The translations under genes and the position numbers were made by a program. A stretch of 64,000 nucleotides of DNA, taken from Bacteroidia bacterium. Its GTDB lineage: Bacteria; Bacteroidota; Bacteroidia; Chitinophagales; Chitinophagaceae. The notes under the pieces are model-generated. The model saw only the letters and a list, made by a program, of their open reading frames with translations. It searched no databases and had not been told where the DNA came from. The DNA is taken from positions 124,001 through 188,000 of the forward strand of contig JAUHYD010000006.1 in the NCBI GenBank assembly GCA_030426665.1, read 5' to 3'. This document shows, one piece after another, positions 1 to 25,071 of the stretch. Positions within the stretch are counted from its first letter, which is position 1. Every line of letters begins with the position of its first letter.

Positions 1-3000
1 AGTATTTTAAGGTACGATGTAGATGATTATAAAGGAGAATTAATTATTGACCCGACGTTGGATTGGGCAACGTATTTGGGGGGAGGCTTAGAGGATTGGA
101 TAATTGCTTGCACGACAGATAAATTAGGTTCAGTGGCAGTAACCGGTCGCACTCAATCTCCCTCAGGCATAGCGACTTCAGGTGCTTATATGTACACTTT
201 TGCGGGTACTATTTTTGACGCATTTTTAGCAAAATTTAGTAATTCAGGTGATTTGAGCTGGGCAACTTATTATGGTGGAAGTGGACCTGATATCGGAAGG
301 GGTGTTGCCACAGATGACTCGTGTAGTATTTTTGTCACCGGGGATACATACAGCACTACAGGTATAGCAACATCAGGTGCATTCCAGTCGAGTTTTGGAG
401 GCTTTAGCGATGCGTTTATAGGTAAATTTGATAGTTCCGGCGCATTACAATGGGCGACTTATCTTGGCGGTTCAAATGAAGATGATGGTCTATGTATTGT
501 AAAAGGTACCCATGGAAGCGTCTATGTGGCCGGGTATACGCGTAGTGCTTCAGGGATTGCTACGTCTGGTACTTATGCTTCTCATGGGTTTGGAGACAAT
601 GATGTATTTATTGTTAAATTTAGTAGTTCCGGCAACAGGGTTTGGGGGACCTATTACGGAGGACATCTAACTGATGTACCACACAGTATTGAAACGGATA
701 ATGCCGGGAATGTATATGTATGTGGTCAGACAAATTCGACTTCAGAAATTGCCACTACCGGGGCACATCAAATTTCCCTCGGGGGGCCGAATGACGGTTT
801 TTTGGCAAAGTTTGGGAGTACTGGAAACTTGGCCTGGGCAACTTATTATGGTGGTGCAGGGTATGACTATGTGTTTGACGTGGTTTTTAGACATGACTAC
901 TTATTTATTTCCGGTAAAACTGAAAGCGATGCAGGTATAGCAACATCGGGTGTTTTTCAAGAATCATATGGTGGCGGATATGGCGACAATTTCCTTGTTA
1001 AGTTTTCCACAGACGGTAGTCGGGAGTGGGGAACATATTATGGCTCGGGTTTGCAAGAGGGTTATGGTTATCTGGAGGTAGATGATTCAGGCTATATTTA
1101 TTTAGCAGGAACCACTACCAGTACGTCAGGAATCGCTACCGCTGGTGTGCCGCAACCTAGTTTCGGAGGAGGTTCAGGTGATTCATATATTGTGAAATTT
1201 GACGATACAGGTGCGCGGCAATGGTGTACGTATTTTGGTGGTGAAGGGATGGATGAAATCAGGAGTCTCTCTTTAGATATGTCAGGGAATTTGTTTTTTG
1301 CAGGAATAACAGGTAGTACCACTGGGGTTGCGACTTCCGGAGCATATCAGCCGACGTTTCATGGGATTCCCTTTGATGGGGTCGTTGGGAAGATAAGATT
1401 TGAATTGCCTCCGATTCTAGGTCCAGATACCGTTTGTATTGGAGATATGGTTATTTTCGGCAACGCTACCGCTTATGGTCAATGGAGTGTTTCGGATACA
1501 AGTATAGCCGTCATGGACTCTGTTAGTATTTATACTGCTCAAATGACAACATTGTCCGTAGGTATTGTAACGATTACATATACCGTAGGTGAACATTTTG
1601 TGACCAAGGGCATTGTAGTCTTTCCTTTATCAGATGCAGGTATTATTTCGGGTTCTGATTCACTTTGTACAGGAGTTTCTGAAGTGTTTACAACGAGTGC
1701 CGATACCGGCGGGATCTGGTTGTCTTCAGATACGATGATTGCTGTTGTTTCGGAGACAGGCATGGTTTCGGGCCGTTCTGAAGGAAGTGTATATATATCG
1801 TATGTAATAAGTAACCGCTGTAGCATTGATACTGCTGTACATTTATTGTATGTCTTGCCCATTCCATCAACTTTTTCAGGATCTCTGGCTGTTTGCAATG
1901 GTTCTTCAACTTCACTTAGCGTTGCTCCTTCGGGCGGGTATTGGCGTAGTATTGATACAGCCGTCGCTGTGTTATCTGATTTAGGAGGAGGCAGTAGTAT
2001 GGTGACCGGAGTAAGTCCCGGAACCTCAGTGGTGTCGTATGTCCGTTTTGGGTGTGGTGTTTCCGAAACTGTCACGGTAAATGCACTACCTGATGCAGGT
2101 GTATTGACTGGTGCAGATTCTGTTTGTAGAGGCGGCAGTGTTTTGTTTTCCGCAACTGCTGTTGGTGGTTTCTGGTCATCGTCCGATGTGTCTGTTGCAA
2201 TTGTCGGTAGTGCCGGAACAATAACCGGAGTTAACGGCGGGACAGCGTTAATAACCTATTCGGTAACAAATGTCTGTGGTACGGACTATATTACACATCC
2301 TATAATAGTAAAACCTTTCCCAACAGCTGGCTTGATCACTGGTGCCGGATCCTTATGTGTTGGCGATACCGCTTTGTTGTCGAATCCGGTCTCCGGTGGC
2401 AACTGGATGTCAGCCAACCCCTCCGTCGTGAGCGTAAGTAGTTCCGGCGAAATTATAGGATTGGCCCCCGGTGCTACTTTGATATTATACATATTGACTA
2501 ACAGCTGCGGTAGTGTATCAGCTACAAAGTCTGTCACCGTCAACCCAATACCCGTCAGCGGGACCATTTCCGGTGCATCGACATTGTGTGCAGGTAATAC
2601 GACCCTCTATTCGAGTACAGAGCCGGGCGGTAGTTGGTCGTCTTCCTACACTCCTGTAGCAACAGTCGGCAGTTCGGGCTTGGTTTCCGGTATTGCTGCC
2701 GGCACTACAACTATATCATATGTAGTTGCCAATAGCTGTGGTTCTGCGTTTACGACGGCAACGCTTACAGTCAACCCGACACCCGATGCAGGTGCAATAG
2801 CGGGAGCGTCGACAGTGTGTGCAGGTGCAACGGAAACGCTAATTGCGACAGTGCCCGGTGGTGCTTGGTCGTCATCCGATGTGTCCGTTGCGGCTATCAG
2901 TAGTACTGGAGTGGTTTCCGGTGTGTCGGCCGGCACGGTTGTCATTTCGTATGCAGTTAGTTTCAGTTGCGGAGATGTGTTTGCTACCAAAGTGTTGACA

Positions 3001-6000: not shown

Positions 6001-7764
6001 TCCTTAAGCGTTTCCTTGCCGACAACGGGTATATGGACAAGCGACGACATAAGCATTGCGTCTATTGATAGTGCAACGGGTATCGCAACTGGCGTGTCGT
6101 CTGGCAGTACAACTATTACTTATCGCATACCGTCGACAGGCTGTTACAATTTTTCGATAATGACTGTTAACCCGCAACCAACAATACTGTCAGGTGCAGA
6201 CAATGTTTGTGAAGGTGCAAACATAACTTTTTCGGGTAGTATCGCGGGCGGAAGTTGGATTAGTGGCAGCCTTGGGGTAGCAACGATTGGATCTACATCC
6301 GGGTTGTTGACGGGTATGACATCAGGTTCGACTATAGTCTCATACACCCTGCCGGGCGGCTGTTTTGCGACGGACACGGTTACTGTGAATGACTTGCCGA
6401 CAGTAATATCCGGAGTGTTGTCGGTCTGCGAAGGACAGACTACAGCACTGAGTAGCACCCCTGCAGGTGGAATCTGGACAAGCGCAAGTCCGATTGCAAC
6501 TTTAGATACGGTTACCGGATTAGTAACAGGATTGGCACATGGAACGGCATCACTTAGCTATACGCTTCCTACCGGTTGTGGCGTGGCTAGTGTAGTGACG
6601 GTGAATGAGACGCCGACTACTATCATCGGTGGGGCGAATATATGTGTCGGGGATCACGAGCTATTGACCGATACCACCGCCGGAGGCGTATGGAGCAGCA
6701 GTGATGCAGCAATAGCTTCTGCAGGCGCCACAACAGGGCTGGTGTCTGGACTGTCTGTAGGTACAGTAAGTATTAGTTATACGCTGCCTTCAGGTTGTGG
6801 AGTTAGTAAACAGGTGACGGTACATGCACTACCAATCATAACAGCAGCAGACACGGTAATCTGTGTGAATGAACAGATATCGCTTATAAATAGCGATACA
6901 TCTTCCGGCGTGTGGAATAGCGCCGACCCATCTGTTGCGACGGTAGTAGACGTATTAGTTAGTGGTGTTGTCGCCGGAACAGCGTCAATTTCTTATACGA
7001 GTAGTTTTGGTTGTGCTACAAGTATTAAACTCACGGTGGAGCCGCTGCCTTATTCGGGTATGATATCCGGTGATACGATTTTGTGTGTCGGAACAGAAGC
7101 AACTTTTACAAGTTCAATTTCCGGAGGTGAGTGGACAAGTAGTGACACTTCGATCCTCGGGTTGTTGTCCGATGGTCAGGTAAAGGGGATTGCGACGGGA
7201 GCCGCAACGGTATCGTATAGTATAACTTCGGAGTGTGGTATCGATGTCGCAATGCAACAAATAAACGTACAGCCAAAGGCTGATGCCGGAGCAATTTCAG
7301 GACCTGATACGCTATGTGCCGGTAGCGAAGCTGTTTTACTGTCATCTGTTAGTGGCGGTGAGTGGTATGTAACAGACCATCAGTACGTAACCGTAAACGG
7401 TGGACGTGTGACAGGCATAAGGGCTGGCGCAACTGCAATACAGTATGTTGTTTCCGGAATGTGCGGTACAGATACTGCACGTTATGAATTGCAGATACGT
7501 TCGGCAGAGGATTGTTCCCCTGTGTACATTATTCGCATACACCCTAATCCGACAAGTGGGAACTTCATAGTTGAAACCCCTGTTGCAGGCAGCCTGATGA
7601 TATACACTGTCGATGGCAGAAAATTATGGGATGCTTACAAAATTCCTGTAGGAATCACGCATATCTCCTTACCCAATTATCTGGCACGAGGTTTTTACAT
7701 GTGCCGATTTATCGGAGAGGACGGTAGCGGAGCTACAGAGAAATTGGTGTTGAAGCCGCAGTAA
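1..7764 (+). CDS. Giant SBBP / 27x Ig-like repeat T9SS surface protein, copy 1 (5' partial)
   Basis: The frame is open to the left edge. By alignment with copy 3, about 800 nt (267 codons: signal peptide and most of DUF7948) lie outside the window. The visible protein starts at the end of DUF7948 (IIDPTL). It continues with seven SBBP repeats (nt 58-1404, 449 codons, each with a W-x-TY-x-GG motif), which suggests a seven-bladed propeller. Next come 27 Ig-like repeats of about 75 residues (nt 1405-7515), each centred on a GG-x-W motif and joined by VTVNPLP-type linkers; repeats 2-27 each carry two cysteines (VC-x-G and GC). A T9SS type A sorting tail follows (nt 7516-7764, with HPNPTSG). Such tails direct export through the outer membrane and surface attachment. 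The likely role is a long adhesive or structural surface fibre; the ligand is unknown. The propeller and Ig repeats 1-5 differ clearly from copies 2 and 3, whereas later repeats are close. Confidence 0.9.
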   Translation, partial: SILRYDVDDYKGELIIDPTLDWATYLGGGLEDWIIACTTDKLGSVAVTGRTQSPSGIATSGAYMYTFAGTIFDAFLAKFSNSGDLSWATYYGGSGPDIGRGVATDDSCSIFVTGDTYSTTGIATSGAFQSSFGGFSDAFIGKFDSSGALQWATYLGGSNEDDGLCIVKGTHGSVYVAGYTRSASGIATSGTYASHGFGDNDVFIVKFSSSGNRVWGTYYGGHLTDVPHSIETDNAGNVYVCGQTNSTSEIATTGAHQISLGGPNDGFLAKFGSTGNLAWATYYGGAGYDYVFDVVFRHDYLFISGKTESDAGIATSGVFQESYGGGYGDNFLVKFSTDGSREWGTYYGSGLQEGYGYLEVDDSGYIYLAGTTTSTSGIATAGVPQPSFGGGSGDSYIVKFDDTGARQWCTYFGGEGMDEIRSLSLDMSGNLFFAGITGSTTGVATSGAYQPTFHGIPFDGVVGKIRFELPPILGPDTVCIGDMVIFGNATAYGQWSVSDTSIAVMDSVSIYTAQMTTLSVGIVTITYTVGEHFVTKGIVVFPLSDAGIISGSDSLCTGVSEVFTTSADTGGIWLSSDTMIAVVSETGMVSGRSEGSVYISYVISNRCSIDTAVHLLYVLPIPSTFSGSLAVCNGSSTSLSVAPSGGYWRSIDTAVAVLSDLGGGSSMVTGVSPGTSVVSYVRFGCGVSETVTVNALPDAGVLTGADSVCRGGSVLFSATAVGGFWSSSDVSVAIVGSAGTITGVNGGTALITYSVTNVCGTDYITHPIIVKPFPTAGLITGAGSLCVGDTALLSNPVSGGNWMSANPSVVSVSSSGEIIGLAPGATLILYILTNSCGSVSATKSVTVNPIPVSGTISGASTLCAGNTTLYSSTEPGGSWSSSYTPVATVGSSGLVSGIAAGTTTISYVVANSCGSAFTTATLTVNPTPDAGAIAGASTVCAGATETLIATVPGGAWSSSDVSVAAISSTGVVSGVSAGTVVISYAVSFSCGDVFATKVLTVNPLPDAGVLSGVLSVCVGSSTTLSSTTPGGIWSSSNTAVATVSSGLLSGVSAGTATISYTITNGCGSASTTAVVTVNPLPDAGTLSGALTVCAGSSTMLSSNISGGAWSSSGTSVATVSTTGNVSGVSAGTATISYTVTNGCGTASSTTIVTVNPLPDAGIISGGSSVCVGNSTTLSSTISGGVWTSSNTIVATVSTIGSVTGVAAGTATISYTVTNGCGAATTASVVTVNPLPDAGTLSGASSVCAGNTITIGSTASGGLWTSSNTAVATVVSGTVSGMSAGAATISYAVTNGCGTATTTKSVTINPLPDAGVVSGTTTVCVGSSTTLTSSVSGGAWTSGNTTVATVSSGMISGVSAGTTSISYTTTNGCGTASATTIITVNALPDAGALSGALSVCSGSSTTLSSTMPGGVWTSSNSFIATVLSGVVSGITAGTATISYTASNGCGASTTTSVVTVNPLPVAGAISGSATLCQGSITSLTTTVTGGVWTSSNTAIATVSPTGVVLGVSGGTATISYSRSNSCGTVAAIRVVTVNPLPTAGSVSGSSSVCVGSIALLSGSVSGGVWSSSNTAVATVSGSGIVLGISAGTTTVSYTVSNSCGTVTATKIVTVLPLPTTGVIAGSGVLCQGSTALMTSSVSGGVWSSSDASVVVISGIGMSAGTSSGTALISYTATNSCGTATATHPVTVNPLPSAGTISGVASLCAGNTTIFAASVSGGVWASSDATVANVSATGAVTGVSDGTAVISYTVANSCGSAIATKIVTVNALPSLTTTSSVLCSGTSTSIAGTPSGGTWSSSSSSVTVSSSGIATGTVAGTATISYTLPTGCSHSAVVTVNPAPAGISGSTSVCEGNTTMLSSTSVGGIWGSTATTVSIDTTTGMVTGVSSGTALISYTLPTGCATYAIVTVNPLPATITGAHQVCTGVSTMLSIATVGGSWVTTDTNVSVSTGGLLSGMYSGTATVHYVLSTGCRQSHAVTVTPTPTAITGATSVCEGQSTSLSVSLPTTGIWTSDDISIASIDSATGIATGVSSGSTTITYRIPSTGCYNFSIMTVNPQPTILSGADNVCEGANITFSGSIAGGSWISGSLGVATIGSTSGLLTGMTSGSTIVSYTLPGGCFATDTVTVNDLPTVISGVLSVCEGQTTALSSTPAGGIWTSASPIATLDTVTGLVTGLAHGTASLSYTLPTGCGVASVVTVNETPTTIIGGANICVGDHELLTDTTAGGVWSSSDAAIASAGATTGLVSGLSVGTVSISYTLPSGCGVSKQVTVHALPIITAADTVICVNEQISLINSDTSSGVWNSADPSVATVVDVLVSGVVAGTASISYTSSFGCATSIKLTVEPLPYSGMISGDTILCVGTEATFTSSISGGEWTSSDTSILGLLSDGQVKGIATGAATVSYSITSECGIDVAMQQINVQPKADAGAISGPDTLCAGSEAVLLSSVSGGEWYVTDHQYVTVNGGRVTGIRAGATAIQYVVSGMCGTDTARYELQIRSAEDCSPVYIIRIHPNPTSGNFIVETPVAGSLMIYTVDGRKLWDAYKIPVGITHISLPNYLARGFYMCRFIGEDGSGATEKLVLKPQ

Positions 7765-7851
7765 TAGAATAGATGTCTAGCCGATATGTAATGAAAGTTT
7801 AATGAATTTTATTATATTGCATTACCTGCTATTTATACCAAATTTAATCTT
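7765..7851 (+). repeat. 87-bp intergenic spacer, copy A
   Basis: This spacer between giant genes 1 and 2 is nearly identical to that at 16417-16503, with the same length and a few substitutions. It is AT-rich, with no clear terminator hairpin and no convincing -33/-7 promoter, so the genes may be co-transcribed or use a promoter that I cannot recognise. Confidence 0.8.
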
Positions 7852-10800
7852 GTGAAAACGACGTTACCAATTGCTGTGCCTCACTTTTTCGAAAAGACGT
7901 ACGTCTTTATTGGCACGATAGCAACAGTAGCAGTTTTGTTCTTATTGTTTTATGGTAGTGCATCAGCTAAGCAACCACCAGCGTCTGGAAGTATTCCAAA
8001 GAATAAGATTGAGAAGAATTTTGGTAGCAGGAATTTGTCGTTTATAGAGAATAAGGGACAGATAGTTGACCAATACCAGCAGCGCAGAAACGATATAGAT
8101 TTTAGCCTTGCAGCTTCAGGGGGACTGAGTATATTCATTGGAGACGGTTCAATCCACTATCAGTTCAGTAAGTGTGAGAACCCGGAGCAGATGCAGTTGC
8201 CGGACAACTTTCCCTTCGATACCGGAGCGCATGAGTTGGAGGATTCTTTGGTGTACTCTATGTACCGGATGGATGTGGAGTTGGTAGGTGCCAATAAAGA
8301 TGCGGAGATAATCAGAGAAGAAAAACAACGCTATTACGAGAATCATTACACAAATGGGCTAACCGGAACGGACGCAAGGGCTAATGCATATAATCGCATT
8401 GTTTATAAAGATGTGTACCCCCATATAGATTGGGTGTTGTACACAAAGGGTAGAGAACTGAAGCATGAATTCGTAGTGCATGAAGGAGGACGGGTAAGTG
8501 ATATTAAGTTGCGTTACGGGGGAGCGATGCAATTAGATATTGTCGATGGTGTGTTGATTGCTACGACTCCACAGGGAACAATAGAAGAACAATCGCCCTA
8601 TACTTACCAGAAGAATGGACATAAAGTAAACAGCAAGTTTGTTTTACAGGATAGTATTTTGAGTTATGATGTTGATAGATACGAAGGAGAGTTGGTGATA
8701 GACCCGACGTTGGAATGGGCAACGTATTTGGGTGGACCCGCGCAAGACGCAATATATTCTTGTTCAACTGATATGGATGGGAACGTAGCGGTAGCTGGAA
8801 ATGCCAATTCAGTGTCTGGTATTGCGACTTTTGGAGCTCATATGTATACACTTGTGGCGTCGGTAGGAGCGGCGTTTGTTGCCAGATTTGATCAATCCGG
8901 AGACCTGGATTGGGCGACCTATTATGCAGGAGATAATAGCACTGTCGCATATGGGTGTGCTACAGATGATACGTTCAGTATTTATGTTGTTGGAGTAACT
9001 TCTAGCAGTACTGGAATAGCGACAACGGGTGCGTTTCAAACGAGCCTTGGAGGTGTGTCTGATGCGTTTATAGCAAAGTTTGATAGTGCTGGTTTATTAT
9101 TGTGGGGGACTTATTATGGAGGGGCTGCAGCTGACGACGGTCAGAGTGTTTCGATAAATAATGCGGGAGACGTTTATGTATGTGGGGCAACTCATAGTAC
9201 TTCAGGTATAGCAACTTCAGGTGCTCATTCTGACCACCTTTCCGGTGCGAATGATGTGTATGTTGCTAAATTTACTGGGTCTGGTGAAAGGATATGGGCC
9301 TCATATTATGGAGGTAATTCTTACGAAGAAGCGAGGAGTATTACGGTTGGTAACTCAGGGGGGGTATATTTATGTGGAGCGACACAGTCTTCCGCAGGTT
9401 TATCAACGTCGGGAGCATTTCATACTTCATATTCTGGCGGGAAAGATGGTTTCCTCGCAAAGTTTAGTGAGGGTGGTCACTTAGTTTGGAGCACGTATTT
9501 GGGAGGAGCGGCTTTCGACCGTTGTTGGGGGGTCGTTGAAAATAGTGGACGTGTTTATGTATCTGGTGAAACAGGTAGTTCCAGCGGAGTTGCGACTGTT
9601 GGAGCATTTCAGGATACTTTTGGTGGTGGTGGTGGACGGGATAATTATGTTGCGAAATTTACGATAGATGGTGGCCTGGAGTGGGCAACATATTATGGGG
9701 GGAGTGGTGATGAGAATTGTGGGAAGATTGATATAGATTCATTTGGAAATATTTATCTGGTCGGTTTTACTAATGGGGTTACAGGGATATCGACATCAGG
9801 TGCGATGCAACCGGACCATGCCGGCGGAATGTGGGATATGTATGTTGTTAAATTCGATGATACCTGTGGTCGACAGTGGTGCTCCTATATTGGAGGTCCT
9901 GGTTTGGATCAGGCTTATTCCACCTCCGTCGATGTAGCTGGCAATTTGTTTATTGCAGGGCGTACCAACAGTAGCAGTGCTATCGCTACTGCAGGTTCAC
10001 ACCAAACGTATTTTTCAGGAGATATGGATGGAATGCTTGTTAAAATCAGTTTTGAGGTGCCCCCTATTGTCGGTGCCGACACAGTTTGTGTTGGCAGTAT
10101 AGAACTGTATTCAGATAGCGTGGCTTACGGTTTTTGGACTAGCTCAGATACAAGCATTGCAATTGTCGATTCTGTGGACATATATACCGGACGTTTGACG
10201 GCGATTTCTGTTGGTTCGGTAGAGATTACATACACTGTAGGTGAGTTTTCAGCTTCAAAAGTAATTGTCGTGGTTCCTACAGCAGATGCTGGTGTCATTG
10301 CCGGACCCGATTCTATTTGTACCGGAGTCTCTGAATTGTTTACCACGAGCGTCGACACCGGCGGTTTTTGGTTTTCTTCAGATACAACTATCGCAACTGT
10401 TTCCGTTGCGGGTCTTGTAACAGGATTGGAAGAGGGTAGTGTGTATTTATGGTATGTTGTTAGCAATGACTGCAGCAGTGATACTGCTTCACATTTATTG
10501 ACCGTTAAACGGACGCCAACCGGTCTTTCAGATACATCCGTTTGCAACGGTTCTTCGTTATCAATTGGAGTAACTCCAATGGGAGGAATATGGAACAGCA
10601 GCGATACTTCGATTGTTGCCGTTAGTGATTTGGGAAGTGGCTTCGGATTGATTTCGGGTGTTGGTATAGGTACAGCTCTTCTATCATACAGCCGTTCGGG
10701 ATGCAGTGTTTCCGGAGTGGTCGTCGTGAATGATTTTCCTGACGTGGGTGATTTGTTTGGTCCTGATAGTGTTTGCAGGGGTAGTGCCGTCGCTTTCTCC

Positions 10801-13800
10801 TCTACAGTACCTGGTGGAGTATGGTGGTCCTCAGATGTGTCTGTTGCGATTGCCGGTAGCGGAGGAACGATAACCGGGGTTAGTGAAGGTACCGCAGTAA
10901 TAACTTATTCGGTAATAAATGCCTGTGGTACGGATTATAGTACACGCTCTGTATTAGTCAAGCCCTCTGCAGTAGCAGGGGTGACCACCGGTTCCGGCTC
11001 CTTGTGTGTTGGTAGCACGACAACTCTTTCAAATACAGTTTCTGGTGGTACATGGCTGTCGTTTACGCCATCTCGAGCTTCGGTTGGTATCGGCAGCGGC
11101 ATAGTTACAGGTGTGACACCGGGTACTGCCTTGATATTGTATGTCGTTACCAATGACTGCAATAGCGCATCTGCCTCTAAAGTAGTCACGGTCAACCCGA
11201 TGCCAATATCAGGCACTATATCAGGTACATCTACGTTATGCGTCGGTAATACAACATTATACACAAGTACGCAGCCGGGCGGTAGTTGGTCGTCTTCCTA
11301 TACTCCTGTGGCAACAGTAAGCGGTTCAGGCTTGGTGTCAGGTATTGCTGCCGGTACTACAACTATATCGTATGTAGTTGCCAATGGTTGTGGTTCTGCG
11401 TTTACGACGGCAACGCTTACCGTCAACCCGACACCCGATGCTGGTACAATAGCGGGAGCGTCGACAGTATGTGCAGGTGCAACAGAAACGCTAACTGCGA
11501 CGGTGCCCGGAGGTGCGTGGTCATCATCCGATGTGTCTGTTGCAGCTATCAGTAGTGCCGGAGTGGTTTCCGGGGTGTCGGCCGGCACGGTTGTCATTTC
11601 GTATGCAGTTAGTTTTAGTTGTGGAGATGTGTTTGCTACCAAAGTAATGACGATAAATCCGCTACCCGACGCAGGGACATTATCAGCAGTACTCTCTGTG
11701 TGCGTGGGCAGCAGTACAACACTAAGCAGCACTACGCCCGGCGGTATTTGGTCTTCCTCAAATGCCGCAGTTGCAACGGTTTCGTCCGGTGTATTGTCGG
11801 GTGTAAGTGCAGGTACGGCAACCATATCATATACAATAACGAATGGTTGCGGTTCGGCATCAACTACTGCAGTAGTTACGGTGAACCCATTGCCTGTTGC
11901 GGGAACACTATCGGGTGTGCTGACGGTATGCGCAGGTAGTAGTACAATGTTGAGCAGTACTATATCAGGAGGTGCATGGTCGTCTTCAAGTACGTCCATA
12001 GCAACAGTTTCGTCAAGCGGTAATGTATCAGGAATAAGTGCCGGAACAGCGACCATATCTTACACAGTTACTAATGGTTGTGGTACAGCATTGGCAACAA
12101 CCATAGTAACCGTAAACCCATTGCCGGACGCAGGAGTAATATCGGGTGCTTCATCGGTCTGCGTTGGTAGCAGCACGACTTTGAGCAGTATGGTATCCGG
12201 CGGCGTTTGGACTTCGACGAATACATCAATAGCAACAGTTTCAACTACTGGTAGTGTAACGGGAGTAGCTGCCGGAACGGCTACGATATCTTATACCGTA
12301 ACAAATGGCTGCGGAGCAGCAACGACTGCCTCAGTAGTTACGGTAAATCCGTTGCCGGATGCAGGCACATTATCAGGTGCTTCATCTGTGTGCGCAGGCA
12401 ACACAATAACCATAGGAAGTACGGCATCAGGCGGTTTATGGACCTCGTCGAACACCGCAGTGGCAACAGTAGTTTCCGGAACTGTGTCGGGCATGAGTGC
12501 CGGTGCCGCGACTATTTCATATGCTGTAACGAACGGCTGCGGAACAGCTACAACCACTAAATCAGTAACGATAAACCCCTTGCCTGACGCCGGAATGATA
12601 TCGGGCACTACATCGGTGTGTGTAGGTAGCAGCACGACTTTGACTAGTTCTGTATCTGGTGGTGCCTGGACATCGAGCAATTCGACAGTAGCAACAGTAT
12701 CGTCGGGTGTGATATCGGGTGTAAGTGCAGGGACTACGTCTATATCTTATACAACAACAAACGGTTGCGGCACGGCATCAGCAACGACAATATTTACGGT
12801 TAACGCATTGCCTGATGCAGGTGCGTTATCAGGTGCTTTGTCTGTATGTTCTGGTAGCAACACGACGTTGAGTAGTACGATGTCCGGTGGTGTGTGGACT
12901 TCGTCAAACGGTTCCATAGCCACGGTTTTATCAGGTATGGTGTCCGGTATAACAGCCGGAACTGCTACAATATCATATACAATGACTAATGGTTGTGGAA
13001 CAGTAAATACGACAAAAGCCATAACAGTCAACCCCTTGCCTGTTGCGAGTGCTATCTCGGGAAGTGCCACATTATGCCAGGGTAGTATTACGTCATTGAT
13101 CGCGACAATGACGGGCGGTGTTTGGACTTCTTCTAATACAGCTATTGCTACCGTATCGCCGACAGGCGTAGTATTGGGAGTGTCAGGTGGCACAGCGACA
13201 ATATCATATAGTCGAAGCAATAGTTGTGGAACGGTAGCTGCAACCAGGGTTGTCACGGTCAACCCTTTACCAACTGCCGGTAGCATTTCAGGCAGTAGCA
13301 TGGTTTGTGTTGGTAGTATTACTTTGATGTCAGGCTCCGTACCAGGAGGAGTCTGGTCGTCCTCCAATACAGCTGTAGCAATGGTGTCGGGAAGTGGCAT
13401 TGTGTTGGGCATTTCAGCAGGCACAACTACTGTTTCTTATATAGTCAGTAACAGTTGCGGCACGGCCACTACTACGAAGGTTGTAACGGTTATGCCACTA
13501 CCTACAACAGGAGTAGTAACCGGCTCAGGAGTCCTCTGCCAGGGCAGTACAGCATTGATGACAAGTAGTGCGTCAGGAGGAGTGTGGAGTTCATCCGATG
13601 CTTCTGTTGTTGTGATCTCGGGCATTGGTATGTCGACAGGAATATCTGCAGGCTCAGCAGTCATATCATACACAGCTACCAATAGTTGCGGTACAGCAAC
13701 CGCAACACATCCGGTTACAGTTAACCCGTTGCCGTCAGCCGGCAGTATTTCAGGTGTAGCGTCATTGTGTGCAGGCAATGCAACAATATTTACCGCATCC

Positions 13801-16416: not shown

Positions 16417-16503
16417 TAGAATAGATAACTATCCGATATGTAATGAAAATTTAATAAATTTTATTATATTGCATTACCTGCTATTTATACCAAATTCAAT
16501 CTT
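16417..16503 (+). repeat. 87-bp intergenic spacer, copy B
   Basis: This is the second copy of the spacer at 7765-7851, between giant genes 2 and 3. The last 50 bp before the GTG start are the best conserved part, consistent with a shared translation or transcription start region. Confidence 0.8.
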
Positions 16504-19500
16504 GTGAAAACGACGTTACCAATTGCTGTGCCTCATTTCTTCGAAAAGACGTACGTCTTTATTGGAAGGGTAACAACAGCAGCAGTTTTGTTCTTATTGT
16601 TTTATGGTAGTGCATCAGCTAAGCAACCACTAGCGTCTGGGAATATTCCAAAGAATAAGATTGAGAAGAATTTTGGCTCGAGAAATTTGTCGTTTATAGA
16701 GAACAAGGGACAGATAGTCGACCAATACCAGCAGCGGAGAAACGATATAGATTTTAGCCTTGCGGCTGCAGGAGGGCTCAGCATTTTCATTGGAGACGGC
16801 GCAATACACTATCAGTTTAGCAAGTGCGAGAACCCGGAAAATATGCAATCACGGGACAATTTTTCGTTTGATACAGGAGTGCATGAGTTGGAAGATTCAC
16901 TGGTATACACCATGTACCGGATGGATGTGGAGTTGGTAGGTGCTAATAAAGATGCGGGAATAATCAGAGAAGAAAAACAACGCTATTACGAGAATCACTA
17001 CACAAATGGGCTAACAGGAACAGATGCCCGCGCCTATGGCTACAACCGGATTACATACAAAGATGTATACCCTGATATTGATTGGGTACTGTACACAGAA
17101 GGCAGAGAGTTGAAGCATGAATTTGTAGTACATGAAGGAGGAAGAGTGAGTGATATACGGCTACGCTATGGAGGGGCAAAACAATTGGATATTGTCGACG
17201 GGGTTCTTACTGCTAGAACTCCGCAGGGCACCATAACGGAGCAGCCACCATATTCTTATCAGTTAAGCGGACAAGAAATCGTAAGCCGATTCGTATTGAA
17301 GGATAACATTCTTGGGTATGATGTAGATGATTATAAAGGAGAATTAATTATTGACCCGACGCTTGAATGGGCAACGTATTTTGGTGGGCCCGGGTCGGAC
17401 AATATTACTGGGTGTGCAACGAATAAAGAAGGTTCTGTGGTTATTGTAGGACAAACATTCTCGGCATCTGGTATCGTTACTTCAGGTGCATTTATGTCGA
17501 CACTTTTTGGTTCTAAGGATGGATTCATTGCAAAGTTCGATAAATATGGCAATGCTGATTGGGCGACCTATTTTGGTGGCGAAAGTGTTGAAGGTATACA
17601 GGATCTTGCAGTTGACAGTATATGTAATATTTATGTTGTTGGGGTTACAAAAAGTGATTCCGGGATTGCAACTTCCGGAGCTCACCAAACAATCAGAGCT
17701 AGTCACGTCGATACTACTGATGGATTCTTAGGTAAGTTTGATAGTACTGGGTTTCTTTTGTGGTGTACTTATTACGGTGGGACCTCATTTGACAGGGCGA
17801 TAGACGTGGCAATAGATAATATTGGGGGGGTATACATAGCCGGGACAACAGAGAGTAGTTCAGGAATCGCAACATTTGGCACATATGCAGATCACCTATC
17901 AGGTACTAGTGATGTATTTATTGCTAAATTCACAGAAGCGGGGGCCAGAGTATGGGGGACCTACTATGGCGGTGCTAGCGACGAACAGGGAGCAGTGATC
18001 AAAGTTGAAAGTTCTGGTAGCATATATATTGCAGGTATTACATGGTCGACTTCGGGATTGGCAACTACAGGTGCGCATCAAGGCTTTTTCGCTGGTTGGT
18101 ATGACTCGTTCCTTGCAAGGTTCAACGCAACGGGAAACAGGGTGTGGGGAACTTATTGGGGAGGAGAAGGTGAAGACAGTTTTATTGATATGGTGGTGCG
18201 GGAGGGGAAAATTTACTTGACAGGCTCTACTAATAGTACAAGTGGTATTGCGACAACAGGGGCTTTTCAGGAAGCTTATGGAGGTGGCTTTCAGGACAAT
18301 TTCCTTGCAAAGTTTTCTACAGGTAGTAGTATGGAGTGGGCAACTTACTATGGAGGGAGTGAAATGGATGTTGGAGAAAGTATTGTAATAGACACACTTG
18401 GTAATATTTACTTGGCCGGTTTTAGTTCTAGTATATCGGGTGTGGTAACTCCGGACGCTTTTCAATCTGTCTATGGTGGGGGGGCATTTGATGCTGTTAT
18501 TGCTAAGTTTGACAAGACCGGTATATTGGCTTCAGCTTCTTACCTTGGAGGAAGTCAGGATGACAAGTTAAGGCGAATGGCTATTGATAGTTCTGGTTAC
18601 ATATATGTTGTGGGTTTGACGCAAAGTAACTCTGGTATTGCAACTGTTGATGCTTTTAGGGCTACATATCAGGGGGGGTATTTTGATGGTCTGCTCGCAA
18701 AAATCAGGGTTGAGATTCCGCCTATTATTGGGCCGGATACAGTTTGTGTAGGCAGTGTAGAATTATACTCAGATAGCGTGGCTTACGGGTTTTGGATTAG
18801 CTCAGATACAAGTATTGCAATTGTTGATTCTGTGGACATATATACCGGACGTTTGACTGCGATTTCTGTTGGTTCGGTAGAGATTACATACACTGTAGGT
18901 GAGTTTTCAGCTTCAAAAGTAATTGTCGTGGTTCCTACAGCAGATGCTGGTGTCATTGCCGGACCCGATTCTATTTGTACTGGAATCTCTGAATTGTTTA
19001 CCACGAGCGTCGACACCGGAGGTTTTTGGTTTTCTTCAGATACAACTATCGCAACTGTTTCCGTTGCGGGTCTTGTAACAGGATTGGAAGAGGGTAGTGT
19101 GTATTTATGGTATGTTGTTAGCAATGACTGCAACAGTGATACTGCTTCACATTTATTGACCGTTATACGGACGCCAACCGGTCTTTCAGATACATCCGTT
19201 TGCAACGGTTCTTCGTTATCAATTGGAGTAACTCCAATGGGAGGAATATGGAACAGCAGCGATACTTCGATTGTTGCCGTTAGTGATTTGGGAAGTGGCT
19301 TCGGATTGATTTCGGGTGTTGGTATAGGTACAGCTCTTCTATCATACAGCCGTTCGGGATGCAGTGTTTCCGGAGTGGTCGTCGTGAATGATTTTCCTGA
19401 CGTGGGTGATTTGTTTGGTCCTGATAGTGTTTGCAGGGGTAGTGCCGTCGCTTTCTCCTCTACAGTACCCGGTGGCGTATGGTCGTCCTCAGATGTGTCT

Positions 19501-22500
19501 GTTGCGATTGCCGGTAGCGGTGGAACGATAACCGGGGTTAGTGAAGGTACCGCAGTAATAACTTATTCGGTAATAAATGCCTGTGGTACGGATTATAGTA
19601 TACGCCCTGTATTAGTCAAGCCCTCCGCAGTAGCAGGGGTGACCACCGGTTCCGGCTCCTTGTGTGTTGGTAGCACGACAACTCTTTCAAATACAGTTTC
19701 TGGTGGTACATGGCTGTCGTTTACGCCATCTCGAGCTTGGGTTGGTATCAGCAGTGGCATAGTTACAGGTGTGACACCGGGTACTGCCTTGATATTGTAT
19801 GTAGTGACCAACGATTGCAATAGTGCATCAAATAGTAAAATCGTTACAGTCAACCCAACACCCGTCAGCGGCACAATTTCCGGTGCATCTACGTTGTGTG
19901 CCGGTAATACAACGCTATACACCAGTACAGAGCCGGGTGGTAGTTGGTCGTCTTCCTATACTCCTGTAGCAACGATTGATGCTACGGGCTTGGTTTCCGG
20001 TATTGCTGCCGGCACTACAACTATATCATATGTAGTTGCCAATAGCTGTGGTTCTGCGTTTACGACGGCAATGCTTACAGTCAACCCGACTCCTGATGCA
20101 GGTACAATAGCCGGTGCGTCGGCAGTGTGTGCAGGTGCAACGGAAACGCTAACTGCGACAGTGCCCGGTGGTGCGTGGTCATCATCCGATGTGTCTGTTG
20201 CAGCTGTCAGTAGTGCCGGAGTGGTTTCCGGGGTGTCGTCCGGCACGGTTGTCATTTCGTATGCAGTTAGTTTTAGTTGTGGAGATGTGTTTGCTACCAA
20301 AGTGTTGACAGTAAACCCGCTACCCGACGCAGGGACATTATCAGCAGTACTCTCTGTGTGCGAGGGCAGCAGTACAACACTAAGTAGCACTACGCCCGGT
20401 GGTATGTGGACATCCTCAAATACCGCAGTCGCAACGGTTTCGTCCGGTTTATTGTCGGGTGTAAGTGCAGGTACGGCAACCATATCATATACAATAACGA
20501 ACAGTTGCGGTTCGGCATCAACTACTGCAGTAGTTACGGTGAACCCATTGCCTGTTGCGGGAACACTATCGGGAGTGCTGACAGTATGCGCAGGTAGTAG
20601 TACGATGTTGAGCAGTACTATATCCGGAGGTGCATGGTCGTCTTCCGGTACTTCCATAGCAACAGTTTCGACAACCGGTAATGTTTCAGGCGTAAGTGCC
20701 GGAACAGCGACCATATCTTACACAGTTACTAATGGTTGTGGTACAGCATCAAGTACAACAATAGTTACTGTAAATCCCCTGCCGGATGCAGGAATAATAT
20801 CGGGAGGTTCATCGGTATGTGTTGGTAACAGTACAGCAATGAGCAGCACTACATCCGGTGGGGTGTGGACTTCGTCAAATACAACAATAGCCACAGTTTC
20901 AACTACCGGTAGTGTAACGGGAGTAGCTGTCGGAACGGCTACGATATCTTATACCGCAACAAATGGCTGCGGAGCAGCAACAACTGCCTCAGTAGTTACT
21001 GTAAATCCGTTACCGGATGCGGGCGCACTATCAGGTGCGTCATCTGTGTGCGCAGGCAACACAATAACAATAGCAAGCACAGCGACTGGCGGCTTATGGA
21101 CCTCGTCAGACGCCGCAGTGGCAACAGTATCTTCTGGAGTAGTGTCGGGCGTGGGTGCCGGTGTCGCGACTATTTCGTATGCTGTAACGAACGGATGCGG
21201 AACAGCTACAACTACGAAATCAGTAACTGTAACCCCCTTGCCTGATGCAGGAATGATATCAGGCACTACATCGGTGTGTGTAGGTAGCAGCACGACTTTG
21301 ACTAGTTCTGTATCTGGTGGTGCCTGGACATCGGGCAATTCGACAGTAGCAACAGTATCGTCGGGTGTGATATCAGGTGTAAGTGCAGGGACTACGTCTA
21401 TATCTTATACAACAACAAACGGTTGCGGCACGGCATCAGCAACGACAATATTTACGGTTAACGCATTGCCTGATGCAGGTGCGTTATCAGGTGCTTTGTC
21501 TGTATGTTCTGGTAGCAACACGACGTTGAGTAGTACGATGTCCGGTGGTGTGTGGACTTCGTCAAACGGTTCCATAGCCACAGTTTTGTCAGGAGTGGTG
21601 TCCGGCATAACAGCCGGAACGGCAACAATATCTTATACAATGACTAATGGTTGTGGAACAGTAAATGCTACAAAAGGCATAACAGTCAATCCCTTGCCTG
21701 TTGCGGGTGCTATCTCGGGAAGTGCCACATTATGCCAGGGTAGTATTACTTCATTAACTGCGACAGTGACCGGAGGTGTTTGGACGTCTTCTAATACAGC
21801 TGTGGCGACAGTATCGCCGACAGGCGTAGTTTTGGGAGTGTCAGGCGGCACAGCGACAATATCATATAGTCGAAGCAATAGTTGTGGAACGGTAGCGGCA
21901 ACCAGGGTTGTTACGGTCAGCCCTTTGCCAACTGCCGGTAGCATCGCGGGCAGTAATTCTGTTTGTGTTGGTAGTATTACGTTGATGTCAGGCTCGGTAT
22001 CAGGAGGGGGCTGGTCGTCCTCCAATACAGCTGTAGCAATGGTGTCGGGAAGTGGCATTGTGTTGGGTATTTCAGCAGGCACAACTACTGTTTCTTATAT
22101 AGTCAGTAACAGTTGCGGCACGGCCACTACTACGAAGGTTGTAACGGTTATGCCACTACCTACAACAGGAGTAGTAACCGGCTTAGGAGTCCTCTGCCAG
22201 GGCAGTACAGCATTAATGACAAGTAGTGCGTCAGGAGGAGTGTGGAGTTCATCCGATGCTTCTGTTGTTGTGATCTCGGGCATTGGTATGTCGACAGGTA
22301 TATCTGCAGGCTCAGCAGTCATATCATACACAGCTACCAATAGTTGCGGTACAGCAACCGCAACACATCCGGTTACAGTTAACCCGTTGCCGTCAGCCGG
22401 TACTATTTCAGGTGCAGGGTCATGGTGTGCAGGCAATACAACAATATTTGCCACATCCGTAGCAGGCGGAGCATGGACGTCTTCTGATGCTACAGTAGCA

Positions 22501-25071
22501 AATGTATCGGTTACAGGTGCAGTGACCGGTGTCTCGGACGGTACAGCAGTAATATCTTATACAATTACTAATAGTTGCGGTAGTGCCACAGCAACGAAGA
22601 TAGTCACGGTAAATGCCTTGCCATCTTTGACAACCACTAGTTCTGTTTTGTGTTCCGGAACATCAACGTCCATTGCCGGCACTCCCTCCGGCGGTACGTG
22701 GAGTAGCTCCTCGTCATCAGTTACGGTAAGTTCGTCAGGAGTAGCTACGGGTACGGTAGCGGGTACGGCAACAGTTACGTACACGTTGCCCTCCGGTTGT
22801 TTTCGGACAACTACAGTGACAGTAAACCCTGCACCTGCGGGCATATCGGGAAGTACATCGGTATGTGAGGGTAACACAATAATGCTTTTCAGTACGACGG
22901 GAGGTGGCATATGGGGTAGCACAGCTCCGACCGTAACTATAGACACCACAACAGGAATAGTTGCCGGTGTGTCGTCAGGCACAGCGCTGGTAAGCTATAC
23001 ACTACCCACCGGTTGTACGACCTATGCGATAGTGACCGTAAATCCACTTCCGGCAACCATAACCGGTGCTCATCAGTTATGTACAGGAGCGTCAGCTATG
23101 CTGTCAAGTGCTACTGTTGGTGGTAGTTGGGTAACCACAGATACGACGGTATCAGTAAGTTCAGTAGGTGCAGTAACCGGTATGTACTCCGGTACAGCGA
23201 CAGTACAATACGTACTCTCGACCGGTTGCAGTCAATCGCATGCAGTAACTGTAACTCCCACACCGGCAGCTATAACCGGAGCAATATCGGTATGCGAAGG
23301 GCAATCCACGTCCTTAAGCGTTTCTTTCCCGACAACGGGTGTCTGGACAAGCGACGACATAAGCATTGCGTCTATTGATAGTGCAACGGGAATTGCATCT
23401 GGCGTATTGTCGGGCACTACAACTATTACTTATCGCATACCATCTACAGGCTGTTACAGTTTTTCAACAATGACTGTTGACCCGCAACCAACAATACTGT
23501 CAGGTGCAGACAATGTTTGTGAAGGTGCAAACATAACCATGTCGGCCAGTATCGCGGACGGAAGTTGGAGTAGTAGCAGTCTTGGGGTAGCAACTATCGG
23601 TGGTACATCCGGACTCGTGACCGGAATAGCATCGGGTACATCAATTGTTAGTTATACGCTACCGGGCGGTTGTTTTGCAATGGATACAGTTACTGTGAAT
23701 GACTTGCCGACAGTGATATCCGGAGTGTTGTCAGTTTGTGAAGGACAGACAACAGCACTGAGTAGCACCCCTGCAGGTGGAATCTGGACAAGCGCAAGTC
23801 TGGTTGTGACTTTAGATACGGTTACCGGATTAGTAACAGGATTGGTACATGGAACAGTATCCGTTAGCTATACGCTTCCTACTGGTTGTGGCGTGACGGG
23901 TGTAGTGACAGTGAATGAGTCACCGGCTACTATCATCGGTGCGGCGAGTATATGTGTCGGAGATCAGGAGCTATTGACCGATACCACCGCCGGAGGTGTA
24001 TGGAGCAGTAGCGATGTGGCAATAGCGTCAGCAGACGTCACGACAGGGCTGGTATCTGGACTGTCTGCAGGTACAGTAAGTATCAGTTATACGTTGCCTA
24101 CAGGTTGTGGAGTTAGTAAACAGGTGACGGTACATGCACTACCAATCATAACAGCAGCAGACACGGTAATTTGTGTGAATGAACAGATATCGCTTATCAG
24201 TAGCGATACATCTTCCGGCGTGTGGATAAGCTCTGACCCATCTGTTGCGACGGTAGTAGGCGGTTTAGTTAGTGGTGTTGTCGCCGGTACAGCAACAATT
24301 TCTTATACGAGTAGTTTTGGTTGTGCTACAAGTATTAAACTCACGGTTGAACCGCTGCCTTATGCAGGGGTAATATCCGGTGATACAATTTTGTGTGAGG
24401 GAGCGGCAGCAATAATTACAAGTTCAGTAGCCGGAGGTGAGTGGACTGCCAGAGATACTGCTGTCCTCCGGATGTTGTCCGATGGTCAGGTAAAGGGCAT
24501 TGCGACAGGAGCAGCAACGCTATCTTATAGCATAACATCTAATTGTGGTACTGATGTAGTTACACAACAAATATACGTACAGCCAAAGGCTGATGCTGGA
24601 GCAATTTCCGGACCGGACACCCTATGTGTGGGTAGTGAAACGGTGCTACTGACGTCAGTAGTTGGCGGGGAGTGGTATGCGGACGACCATCATTACGCAA
24701 CAGTGGCTGGTGGACGCGTAACAGGCATTAAAGCAGGTGTAACGACAATACAGTACGTCGTTTCCGGAATGTGCGGTACAGATACTGCACGATATGAAAT
24801 TCAGATACGTTCGGCTGAAGATTGTTACCCTGTGTACATTATTCGCATATACCCTAATCCATCAAGTGGAAATTTCATTGTTGAAACTCCTGTTGCAGGC
24901 AGCCTGATGATATACACTGTCGATGGCAGAAAATTATGGGATGCTTACAAAATTCCTGTAGGAATCACGCATATCTCCTTACCCAATTATCTGGCACGAG
25001 GTTTTTACATGTGCCGATTTATCGGAGAGGACGGTAGCAGTGCTACTGAGAAATTGGTGTTGAAGCCGTAA
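16504..25071 (+). CDS. Giant SBBP / 27x Ig-like repeat T9SS surface protein, copy 3 (complete)
   Basis: This complete gene of 2855 residues starts at GTG 16504, with the same upstream 87-nt spacer and signal peptide as copy 2. The order is signal peptide (1-40), DUF7948 (about 55-285), seven SBBP repeats (287-737, two residues longer than in the other copies; the seventh has lost its Trp and reads SASYLGG), 27 Ig-like repeats (738-2774, again exactly 2037 residues) and a T9SS type A tail (2775-2855, IYPNPSSG). It ends one codon early (KLVLKP instead of KLVLKPQ). It is the last copy: the array stops here and a convergent minus-strand gene begins 33 nt further on. Surface display by T9SS is well supported by the tail; an adhesin or fibre role is inferred from the propeller-plus-Ig-stalk layout. 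Confidence 0.93.
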   Translation: MKTTLPIAVPHFFEKTYVFIGRVTTAAVLFLLFYGSASAKQPLASGNIPKNKIEKNFGSRNLSFIENKGQIVDQYQQRRNDIDFSLAAAGGLSIFIGDGAIHYQFSKCENPENMQSRDNFSFDTGVHELEDSLVYTMYRMDVELVGANKDAGIIREEKQRYYENHYTNGLTGTDARAYGYNRITYKDVYPDIDWVLYTEGRELKHEFVVHEGGRVSDIRLRYGGAKQLDIVDGVLTARTPQGTITEQPPYSYQLSGQEIVSRFVLKDNILGYDVDDYKGELIIDPTLEWATYFGGPGSDNITGCATNKEGSVVIVGQTFSASGIVTSGAFMSTLFGSKDGFIAKFDKYGNADWATYFGGESVEGIQDLAVDSICNIYVVGVTKSDSGIATSGAHQTIRASHVDTTDGFLGKFDSTGFLLWCTYYGGTSFDRAIDVAIDNIGGVYIAGTTESSSGIATFGTYADHLSGTSDVFIAKFTEAGARVWGTYYGGASDEQGAVIKVESSGSIYIAGITWSTSGLATTGAHQGFFAGWYDSFLARFNATGNRVWGTYWGGEGEDSFIDMVVREGKIYLTGSTNSTSGIATTGAFQEAYGGGFQDNFLAKFSTGSSMEWATYYGGSEMDVGESIVIDTLGNIYLAGFSSSISGVVTPDAFQSVYGGGAFDAVIAKFDKTGILASASYLGGSQDDKLRRMAIDSSGYIYVVGLTQSNSGIATVDAFRATYQGGYFDGLLAKIRVEIPPIIGPDTVCVGSVELYSDSVAYGFWISSDTSIAIVDSVDIYTGRLTAISVGSVEITYTVGEFSASKVIVVVPTADAGVIAGPDSICTGISELFTTSVDTGGFWFSSDTTIATVSVAGLVTGLEEGSVYLWYVVSNDCNSDTASHLLTVIRTPTGLSDTSVCNGSSLSIGVTPMGGIWNSSDTSIVAVSDLGSGFGLISGVGIGTALLSYSRSGCSVSGVVVVNDFPDVGDLFGPDSVCRGSAVAFSSTVPGGVWSSSDVSVAIAGSGGTITGVSEGTAVITYSVINACGTDYSIRPVLVKPSAVAGVTTGSGSLCVGSTTTLSNTVSGGTWLSFTPSRAWVGISSGIVTGVTPGTALILYVVTNDCNSASNSKIVTVNPTPVSGTISGASTLCAGNTTLYTSTEPGGSWSSSYTPVATIDATGLVSGIAAGTTTISYVVANSCGSAFTTAMLTVNPTPDAGTIAGASAVCAGATETLTATVPGGAWSSSDVSVAAVSSAGVVSGVSSGTVVISYAVSFSCGDVFATKVLTVNPLPDAGTLSAVLSVCEGSSTTLSSTTPGGMWTSSNTAVATVSSGLLSGVSAGTATISYTITNSCGSASTTAVVTVNPLPVAGTLSGVLTVCAGSSTMLSSTISGGAWSSSGTSIATVSTTGNVSGVSAGTATISYTVTNGCGTASSTTIVTVNPLPDAGIISGGSSVCVGNSTAMSSTTSGGVWTSSNTTIATVSTTGSVTGVAVGTATISYTATNGCGAATTASVVTVNPLPDAGALSGASSVCAGNTITIASTATGGLWTSSDAAVATVSSGVVSGVGAGVATISYAVTNGCGTATTTKSVTVTPLPDAGMISGTTSVCVGSSTTLTSSVSGGAWTSGNSTVATVSSGVISGVSAGTTSISYTTTNGCGTASATTIFTVNALPDAGALSGALSVCSGSNTTLSSTMSGGVWTSSNGSIATVLSGVVSGITAGTATISYTMTNGCGTVNATKGITVNPLPVAGAISGSATLCQGSITSLTATVTGGVWTSSNTAVATVSPTGVVLGVSGGTATISYSRSNSCGTVAATRVVTVSPLPTAGSIAGSNSVCVGSITLMSGSVSGGGWSSSNTAVAMVSGSGIVLGISAGTTTVSYIVSNSCGTATTTKVVTVMPLPTTGVVTGLGVLCQGSTALMTSSASGGVWSSSDASVVVISGIGMSTGISAGSAVISYTATNSCGTATATHPVTVNPLPSAGTISGAGSWCAGNTTIFATSVAGGAWTSSDATVANVSVTGAVTGVSDGTAVISYTITNSCGSATATKIVTVNALPSLTTTSSVLCSGTSTSIAGTPSGGTWSSSSSSVTVSSSGVATGTVAGTATVTYTLPSGCFRTTTVTVNPAPAGISGSTSVCEGNTIMLFSTTGGGIWGSTAPTVTIDTTTGIVAGVSSGTALVSYTLPTGCTTYAIVTVNPLPATITGAHQLCTGASAMLSSATVGGSWVTTDTTVSVSSVGAVTGMYSGTATVQYVLSTGCSQSHAVTVTPTPAAITGAISVCEGQSTSLSVSFPTTGVWTSDDISIASIDSATGIASGVLSGTTTITYRIPSTGCYSFSTMTVDPQPTILSGADNVCEGANITMSASIADGSWSSSSLGVATIGGTSGLVTGIASGTSIVSYTLPGGCFAMDTVTVNDLPTVISGVLSVCEGQTTALSSTPAGGIWTSASLVVTLDTVTGLVTGLVHGTVSVSYTLPTGCGVTGVVTVNESPATIIGAASICVGDQELLTDTTAGGVWSSSDVAIASADVTTGLVSGLSAGTVSISYTLPTGCGVSKQVTVHALPIITAADTVICVNEQISLISSDTSSGVWISSDPSVATVVGGLVSGVVAGTATISYTSSFGCATSIKLTVEPLPYAGVISGDTILCEGAAAIITSSVAGGEWTARDTAVLRMLSDGQVKGIATGAATLSYSITSNCGTDVVTQQIYVQPKADAGAISGPDTLCVGSETVLLTSVVGGEWYADDHHYATVAGGRVTGIKAGVTTIQYVVSGMCGTDTARYEIQIRSAEDCYPVYIIRIYPNPSSGNFIVETPVAGSLMIYTVDGRKLWDAYKIPVGITHISLPNYLARGFYMCRFIGEDGSSATEKLVLKP

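Follow-up and report, generated by a model that had tools for sequence, protein, structure and literature searches.

Giant T9SS fibre genes in a Chitinophagaceae genome: old propeller heads on Ig stalks probably homogenised by recombination

Three tandem genes of a Chitinophagaceae bacterium encode giant proteins in which a DUF7948 domain and a seven-bladed SBBP propeller precede a stalk of immunoglobulin-like (Ig) repeats and a T9SS type A tail. The heads of these proteins are old, their stalks have been shared recently, and the same combination recurs at dispersed loci. Most probably, these T9SS fibre genes arose by tandem duplication and their stalks were homogenised by recombination while the heads escaped, as likely also happened at dispersed loci of the genus.

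The array lies on contig C43 of a 4.62-Mb assembly of 43 contigs (genome G000), where it spans contig positions 123197-149071 with a repeat period of 8652 nt. The window, that is the whole stretch of 64,000 nt that was analysed, opens inside the first gene: the ATG start of copy 1 is located 804 nt to the left of it and the full frame (L012:197-8764) encodes 2855 aa, whereas GTG is the start codon of copy 2 (at 7852) and of copy 3 (at 16504). All three genes are intact (2855, 2854 and 2855 codons). An earlier note on this DNA had described three tandem paralogs with a common domain order, and this description holds: each frame opens with a hydrophobic N-terminus, followed by DUF7948, a propeller of seven SBBP blades, 27 Ig repeats and, at the end, a T9SS type A tail, and the propeller coordinates given in that note (58-1404, 8710-10056 and 17362-18714) are right. 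The features, in window positions, are as follows.

1..7764, plus strand: copy 1, in-window part (whole gene G000:C43:123197-131764, 2855 aa)
58..1404, plus strand: copy 1, seven-bladed SBBP propeller
1411..2550, plus strand: copy 1, Ig1-5, diverged from copies 2 and 3 (dS 1.6)
2551..7530, plus strand: copy 1, Ig6-27, homogenised stalk
7531..7764, plus strand: copy 1, T9SS type A tail, assigned by identity to copies 2 and 3
7765..7851, no strand: spacer between copies 1 and 2, with the upstream element at 7785-7820; 81 of 87 nt the same as in the spacer between copies 2 and 3
7852..16416, plus strand: copy 2, 2854 aa, GTG start
7987..8709, plus strand: copy 2, DUF7948 and linker
8710..10056, plus strand: copy 2, propeller
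10057..11196, plus strand: copy 2, Ig1-5 (dS 0.11 to copy 3)
11197..16182, plus strand: copy 2, Ig6-27
16183..16416, plus strand: copy 2, T9SS type A tail
16417..16503, no strand: spacer between copies 2 and 3, with the upstream element at 16437-16472
16504..25071, plus strand: copy 3, 2855 aa, GTG start
16639..17361, plus strand: copy 3, DUF7948 and linker
17362..18714, plus strand: copy 3, propeller (AlphaFold2 blocks mostly at pLDDT 85-97)
18715..19854, plus strand: copy 3, Ig1-5
19855..24837, plus strand: copy 3, Ig6-27
24838..25071, plus strand: copy 3, T9SS type A tail

The Ig repeats are 71-78 residues long and contain two cysteines each, amounting to 54 cysteines per stalk. Counting by motif gave 27, 27 and 26 repeats, the third stalk having a 154-residue gap at one off-pattern repeat and thus 27 repeats too. 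Pfam matched DUF7948, SBBP (above cut-off in all three copies) and many Big_2 Ig domains; the first scan covered the in-window part of copy 1, whose DUF7948 domain was matched in a separate scan. The N-termini, as judged by eye, are hydrophobic stretches ending in SASAKQ or VSAKQ, putative signal peptides. TIGR04183, the T9SS type A C-terminal sorting domain, scores above its cut-off of 23 in two of the three copies (24.7 and 27.2); copy 1 is absent from the matches at E ≤ 0.01, yet its last 60 columns are 94-98% identical to the other copies at the nucleotide level. Each copy is preceded by a 36-nt upstream element, for which the genome, allowing three mismatches, contains these three matches and no others (none for the reversed control). 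An antisense frame of 252 codons recurs on the minus strand at the equivalent spot of each stalk (2646-3404, 11298-12056 and 19956-20714) and is probably a by-product of the repeat codons. Near the array are two more genes with T9SS tails (Por_Secre_tail and CHU_C, window 28945-30477 and 30910-33147), and to the left of it two reprolysin-like metalloproteases with T9SS tails (L011:1875-6505).

Judged from their sequences, the three proteins would be T9SS-exported surface fibres with a C-terminally anchored, disulfide-type stalk of 27 Ig repeats, presumably about 100 nm long by our estimate, and with DUF7948 and the propeller at its far end. T9SS type A cargo is attached through its C-terminal end (PMC8545088), and the heads should therefore point outwards, which would leave the C-terminus on the cell side and make the head the outermost part. 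The heads may bind different ligands through the top face or the central channel of the propeller.

How different are head and stalk within the array? When propellers and stalks are aligned separately, as the earlier note had proposed, the propellers turn out to be far less similar than the stalks (Nei-Gojobori estimates): the former share 46-51% of their amino acids in pairwise comparison and have a saturated dS of 2.3-3.2, whereas dS is 0.24-0.28 for Ig6-27, an approximately ten-fold difference in synonymous divergence between two segments of one gene, in line with the strongly diverged propellers and close late Ig repeats noticed earlier. The T9SS tails (dS 0.14-0.31) resemble the late stalk, and DUF7948 is intermediate (85-92% amino acid identity, dS 0.5-1.5). 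Copy 1 stands apart at two places. Ig1-5 differ by a dS of 0.11 between copies 2 and 3 versus 1.6 from copy 1 to either, and the signal peptides by 0.10 between copies 2 and 3 versus 2.0 with copy 1, which has about 53% nucleotide identity to both. The conserved stalk of the earlier note is thus found in Ig6-27 of all copies and not in Ig1-5 of copy 1, which is old; similarly, the likeness it had seen among signal peptides applies to copies 2 and 3 and not to copy 1, and that among the spacers was correctly observed. The ratio dN/dS stays below 0.3 in every segment except the signal peptide of copies 2 and 3 (0.53) and is 0.14-0.19 in the heads, where saturated dS makes it a rough value. Positive selection on the heads was considered and is not shown, dS being saturated.

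The copies are colinear, each Ig repeat matching best the repeat at the same position (27 of 27 in all three comparisons), with 59-100% DNA identity for same-position repeats versus 55-71% for other positions. Moreover, sites at which two copies agree against the third are clustered along Ig6-27 (303 runs versus 489 expected, with none of 2000 shuffles as low), indicating a mosaic, and the longest identical tract, between copies 1 and 2, measures 309 nt. Silent sites are unclustered in the propeller (63 runs versus 62 expected) and in DUF7948 (45 versus 47), and propeller sites of all kinds are slightly clustered (367 versus 398; 11 of 2000 shuffles). Since the contrast between head and stalk extends to synonymous sites, selection for a constant stalk protein cannot account for it; recombination can.

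DUF7948 is present in all 35 genomes of the genus that were searched, and many of them contain giant genes that combine it with a propeller and an Ig stalk; relatives with similar heads include Flavipsychrobacter sp. and Taibaiella sp., and several of the relatives are MAGs. Most of these genomes also contain about one DUF7948 gene of some 1195-1260 codons with the highest DUF7948 scores (in G000 at C8:65051). Comparison of 53 heads yields 1378 possible pairs, and among the 1239 of them in the identity classes listed none exceeds the three pairs from the array in DUF7948 identity (85, 86 and 92%), yet the propellers of these three are 46, 51 and 48% identical. Other close pairs are mostly even in the two domains, such as the L070 array and the L023/24/31 group (DUF7948 72-78%, propeller 68-80%). 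Exceptions are L055/L060 of one MAG (72% for DUF7948 and 40% for the propeller), L059/L065 (71 and 50%) and in part L050/L069 (82 and 60%). In four between-species pairs of giant genes the identities of propeller and stalk are 59 and 49%, 58 and 53%, 41 and 36%, and 43 and 48%, the propeller being the higher in three of the four; as these pairs lack the contrast between head and stalk, the stalks of the array appear homogenised by recombination and not merely conserved. The propeller of a single-copy head gene of G000 on contig C22 is 51-67% identical to those of six relatives, indicating that the array heads have diverged further than that.

A whole-protein search in which the best eight candidates per genome were scored found no orthologous array in the other 34 genomes, the best head elsewhere being 50% identical over 606 residues. 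DUF7948 genes are clustered (gaps of up to about 9 kb) in four of the 35 genomes, namely at G000:C43, G020:C4, G019:C47 and, as a pair, G018:C8. The tandem triplet with Ig stalks in G020 is not homogenised (stalks 44-55%, heads 51-54%), which led us to reject the idea that all tandem arrays follow one genome-wide principle.

A stalk query against G000 itself gave 300 matches, from which 20 stretches, covering a subset of the giant genes, were picked. When 22 large frames were all compared pairwise, identity over the last 450 residues reached 55% or more in 13 pairs. Three of these belong to the array, and the other ten are formed by five dispersed genes, located on contigs C29, C5, C11, C24 and C10. 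An N-terminal match is absent in nine of these ten pairs. The head encoded on C10 is legume-lectin-like (above the Pfam cut-off for PF03388, below it for PF18483), and another giant gene (L126) carries FG-GAP repeats; the remaining heads are unassigned. Under their unrelated heads the C-termini of the C29, C5, C11 and C24 proteins are 82-98% identical, and with C10 the value is 61-62%. For C29, C5 and C11 the last 750 codons have a dS of 0.23-0.84, which rises to values mostly above 1 farther upstream, and their homology ends at the stop codon, downstream of which 18-20 of 60 nt are identical, the level of chance. C24 combines its 82-84% shared C-terminal residues with a mostly saturated dS, and dS is mostly saturated for C10 as well, suggesting that homogenisation of these two genes is old or that constraint accounts for part of the likeness. 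Homogenisation at synonymous sites is thus found in Ig6-27 of the array and in C29, C5 and C11, and not in C24 and C10. G000 is generally rich in giant Ig-repeat frames of 2000-5000 codons, and one on C40 has 8619 codons (G000:C40:1-39900; L127, L128) and contains a tandem repeat of about 675 nt with 88-90% identity over 12 kb. At G000:C29:350000-367686 (L123) a 2.1-kb segment is 92% identical between two adjacent Ig-repeat genes, of which the second continues past the contig end.

The last 450 residues of the C29 protein match 34 of the 35 genomes at E ≤ 1e-100. Heads and C-termini (the last 450 aa) were compared across species in nine relevant stretches from four relatives. Heads of type A (C11 of G000, G002 and G018) are 69-77% identical between species and their C-termini 57-64%; lectin-like heads of type B (C10 of G000, G002, G009 and G019) are 55-69% identical and their C-termini 52-59%, the head being the higher in five of six pairs and the sixth level (55 versus 56%). 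Type C (C24 of G000 and G002) runs against this trend, with 46.5% for the head and 57.5% for the C-terminus. Within genomes, C-termini under unrelated heads reach 82-98% among four genes of G000 and 82-97% in G002, compared with 52-64% between species for the same head type. In this dispersed family paralogues of one genome are hence closer to each other than to orthologues of other species, as is expected for concerted evolution. The two genes of G018 are 71-76% alike in their last 900 codons, with high dS. A tree of the C-termini clusters by genome, with support of 100 for G002, 96 for G018 and 87, below 95, for G000, and needs two changes for three genomes, a number as low in one of 200 shuffles. 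The genomic surroundings of the type A gene are conserved: the same two genes (221 and 401 codons; 77-86%) lie directly upstream in three species, and a third of 538 codons (85-90%) lies near by. Flanks and head are thus orthologous in three species and the stalk end groups by genome, which means that the former follow the species tree and the stalk follows the genome. For type B, G000 and G002 have one neighbour of 652 codons in common (77%), which is absent from the examined stretches of G009 and G019. In G002, contigs C3 and C4 both start inside a nearly identical giant gene (first 6.7 kb; L141 and L142) with 95-99% amino acid identity over 300-codon blocks and a dS of 0.13-0.44; these are either true paralogues or a chromosome/plasmid pair.

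Could the stalks be alike for a simpler reason, namely that whole genes including their stalks were duplicated recently and then received new propeller cassettes, by way of their matching flanks, from other loci or strains? Copies 2 and 3 do show a dS of about 0.1 on either side of the head, in the signal peptide (0.10) and Ig1-5 (0.11), and the array heads, at 46-51%, resemble one another scarcely more than they do heads from other species (up to 47%), both as head replacement would predict. We nevertheless regard this route as unlikely. The three array propellers group as a single clade (SH-aLRT 98 in a quickly computed tree; 50 of 60 bootstraps) that contains none of the sampled heads from other species, the nearest head is another array head for nine of nine propeller thirds, and no donor head was found in the assembly. 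Moreover, at the dispersed type A locus it is the stalk that was replaced, the orthologous flanks and head having stayed in place. Assembly artefacts, i.e. collapsed or mis-joined repeats, come to mind because at least seven contigs of G000 start inside giant Ig-repeat genes, showing that the assembly breaks there, and mis-joins could mimic part of the mosaic. Yet the copies differ throughout (dS about 0.25) and the spacers at 6 of 87 sites, mis-joining cannot reduce the divergence among three copies, and the pattern is also seen in the G002 assembly of about ten contigs, where the last 600 codons of L143 and L144 have a dS of 0.31-0.56. We give this explanation hardly any weight.

The earlier note had also proposed phase or antigenic variation, in which the heads would be a switchable set under pressure to vary. 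Diverse heads on a common shaft are what such a system would display, and the long homologous stalks would be usable for recombination; the rest of the evidence makes the idea very improbable. All three genes are intact and each has its own upstream element, the assembly holds no spare copies of the array heads (among 42 matches the next best scores 317 bits versus at least 793), no recombinase is named among the 28 neighbouring ORFs scanned, which are part of those in the window, and the dN/dS of the heads is low, albeit saturated. A search for inverted pairs at the three gene starts found a single one, at copy 1, which is 15 nt long and imperfect. Homogenisation by recombination, which the earlier note had suggested for the stalks, gains in strength instead, through the ten-fold contrast in dS, the mosaic of stalk sites and the recurrence at dispersed loci and in another species.

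The main route would then be recombination and not a recent duplication followed by head replacement. The array would have arisen in this lineage by tandem duplication, whereupon recombination between copies, by gene conversion or unequal crossing over, would have overwritten Ig6-27 again and again, along with the tail, the spacers and parts of DUF7948. The propellers would have escaped and diverged to nearly the extent seen between propellers of different genes in different species. Across the genus, the C-terminal stalks of giant T9SS genes that lie at separate loci and encode unrelated heads would have been homogenised per genome while the heads descended from orthologues, and the outcome would be a stable set of different tips on a common shaft. 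A bolder reading, which we consider rather doubtful, is that each species keeps one shaft for many of its fibres, with cell-proximal stalks matched per genome by recombination and selection, such that the shaft would be a self-type and the heads an interchangeable, inherited tool set; matched stalks would then perhaps serve side-by-side packing or fit a species-specific anchor.

Segmental concerted evolution has been reported before. In Helicobacter pylori the paralogous adhesin genes babA/babB and homA/homB combine a variable segment with a 3' segment that is alike within a strain, which is described as concerted evolution (PMC3960876). This resembles the array, although these proteins are outer-membrane proteins of another phylum and not T9SS fibres, and their variable regions are homologous, whereas the heads of the dispersed genes described here are mutually unrelated and the common part is a stalk of 27-28 Ig repeats. 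Closer in phylogeny are rgpA, kgp and hagA of Porphyromonas gingivalis, T9SS proteins of Bacteroidota in which repeats identical within and between genes lie below different N-terminal parts (PMC5266723). There the heads are proteinases and the repeats adhesin domains, whereas the present genes combine repeats in the form of an Ig stalk with heads that are propellers, lectin-like or unassigned. The tandem giant surface proteins Giant1-5 of Apilactobacillus kunkeei likewise have an N-terminal binding domain, repeats and a conserved C-terminus, and homogenisation by recombination was proposed for giant4b/5b (PMC12863079). They are Gram-positive proteins of other folds, and the homogenisation described for them is between alleles of two neighbouring genes, unlike the stalks homogenised under unrelated heads at dispersed loci in this genus. 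Periscope proteins also hold an N-terminal binding domain off the cell by a rod of tandem domains, but their rod length varies via near-identical repeats (PMC8201768), whereas all three array copies keep 27 repeats with 55-71% DNA identity within a gene. As far as the literature search shows, the new element is that giant Ig stalks carry unrelated heads at dispersed loci, with head orthology beside stalk homogenisation: the search, which most subscription journals lay outside, found no published account of this case and no match for DUF7948 or for Chitinophagaceae together with the SBBP repeat.

Large surface proteins with repeats are a common feature of environmental Bacteroidota, and most of them have yet to be interpreted. 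The case presented here shows how a repertoire of them evolves, with shafts common and rewritten and tips held apart, and it separates the parts that possibly recognise something (the heads, which have orthologues across species) from those whose sequence reflects the genome alone. This split matters for function prediction, for trees built from such proteins and for assembly, and it becomes testable whether matched stalks are useful to the cell or a by-product of repeats.

What do the heads look like? Each of the three array heads has seven blades. AlphaFold2 predicts a confident seven-bladed propeller of 28 strands for copy 3, closed by one N-terminal and three C-terminal strands; the corresponding type of model for the stalk was unusable (pLDDT 28). 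The nearest solved structure to the copy 3 model is CylK, the alignment covering model residues 241-692. CylK of Cylindrospermum is a biosynthetic enzyme with a Ca2+-binding beta-roll as its N-terminal domain (PDB 7fh6-7fh8, 7ron, 7roo; PMC8916777); the part that aligns with the array head is the propeller. A CylK-like enzyme function is not claimed, the alignment being limited to this part. The least conserved element of the propeller is the strand after the GG turn, with a conservation of 0.27 in the array and 0.23 in the family. Given how the propeller closes and how strands are usually ordered in this fold, we take it to be the innermost, channel-lining strand. Variation along the array propellers tracks that of the whole family (Spearman 0.63) and consequently looks like the ordinary divergence of a binding fold, not like a special hypervariable region.
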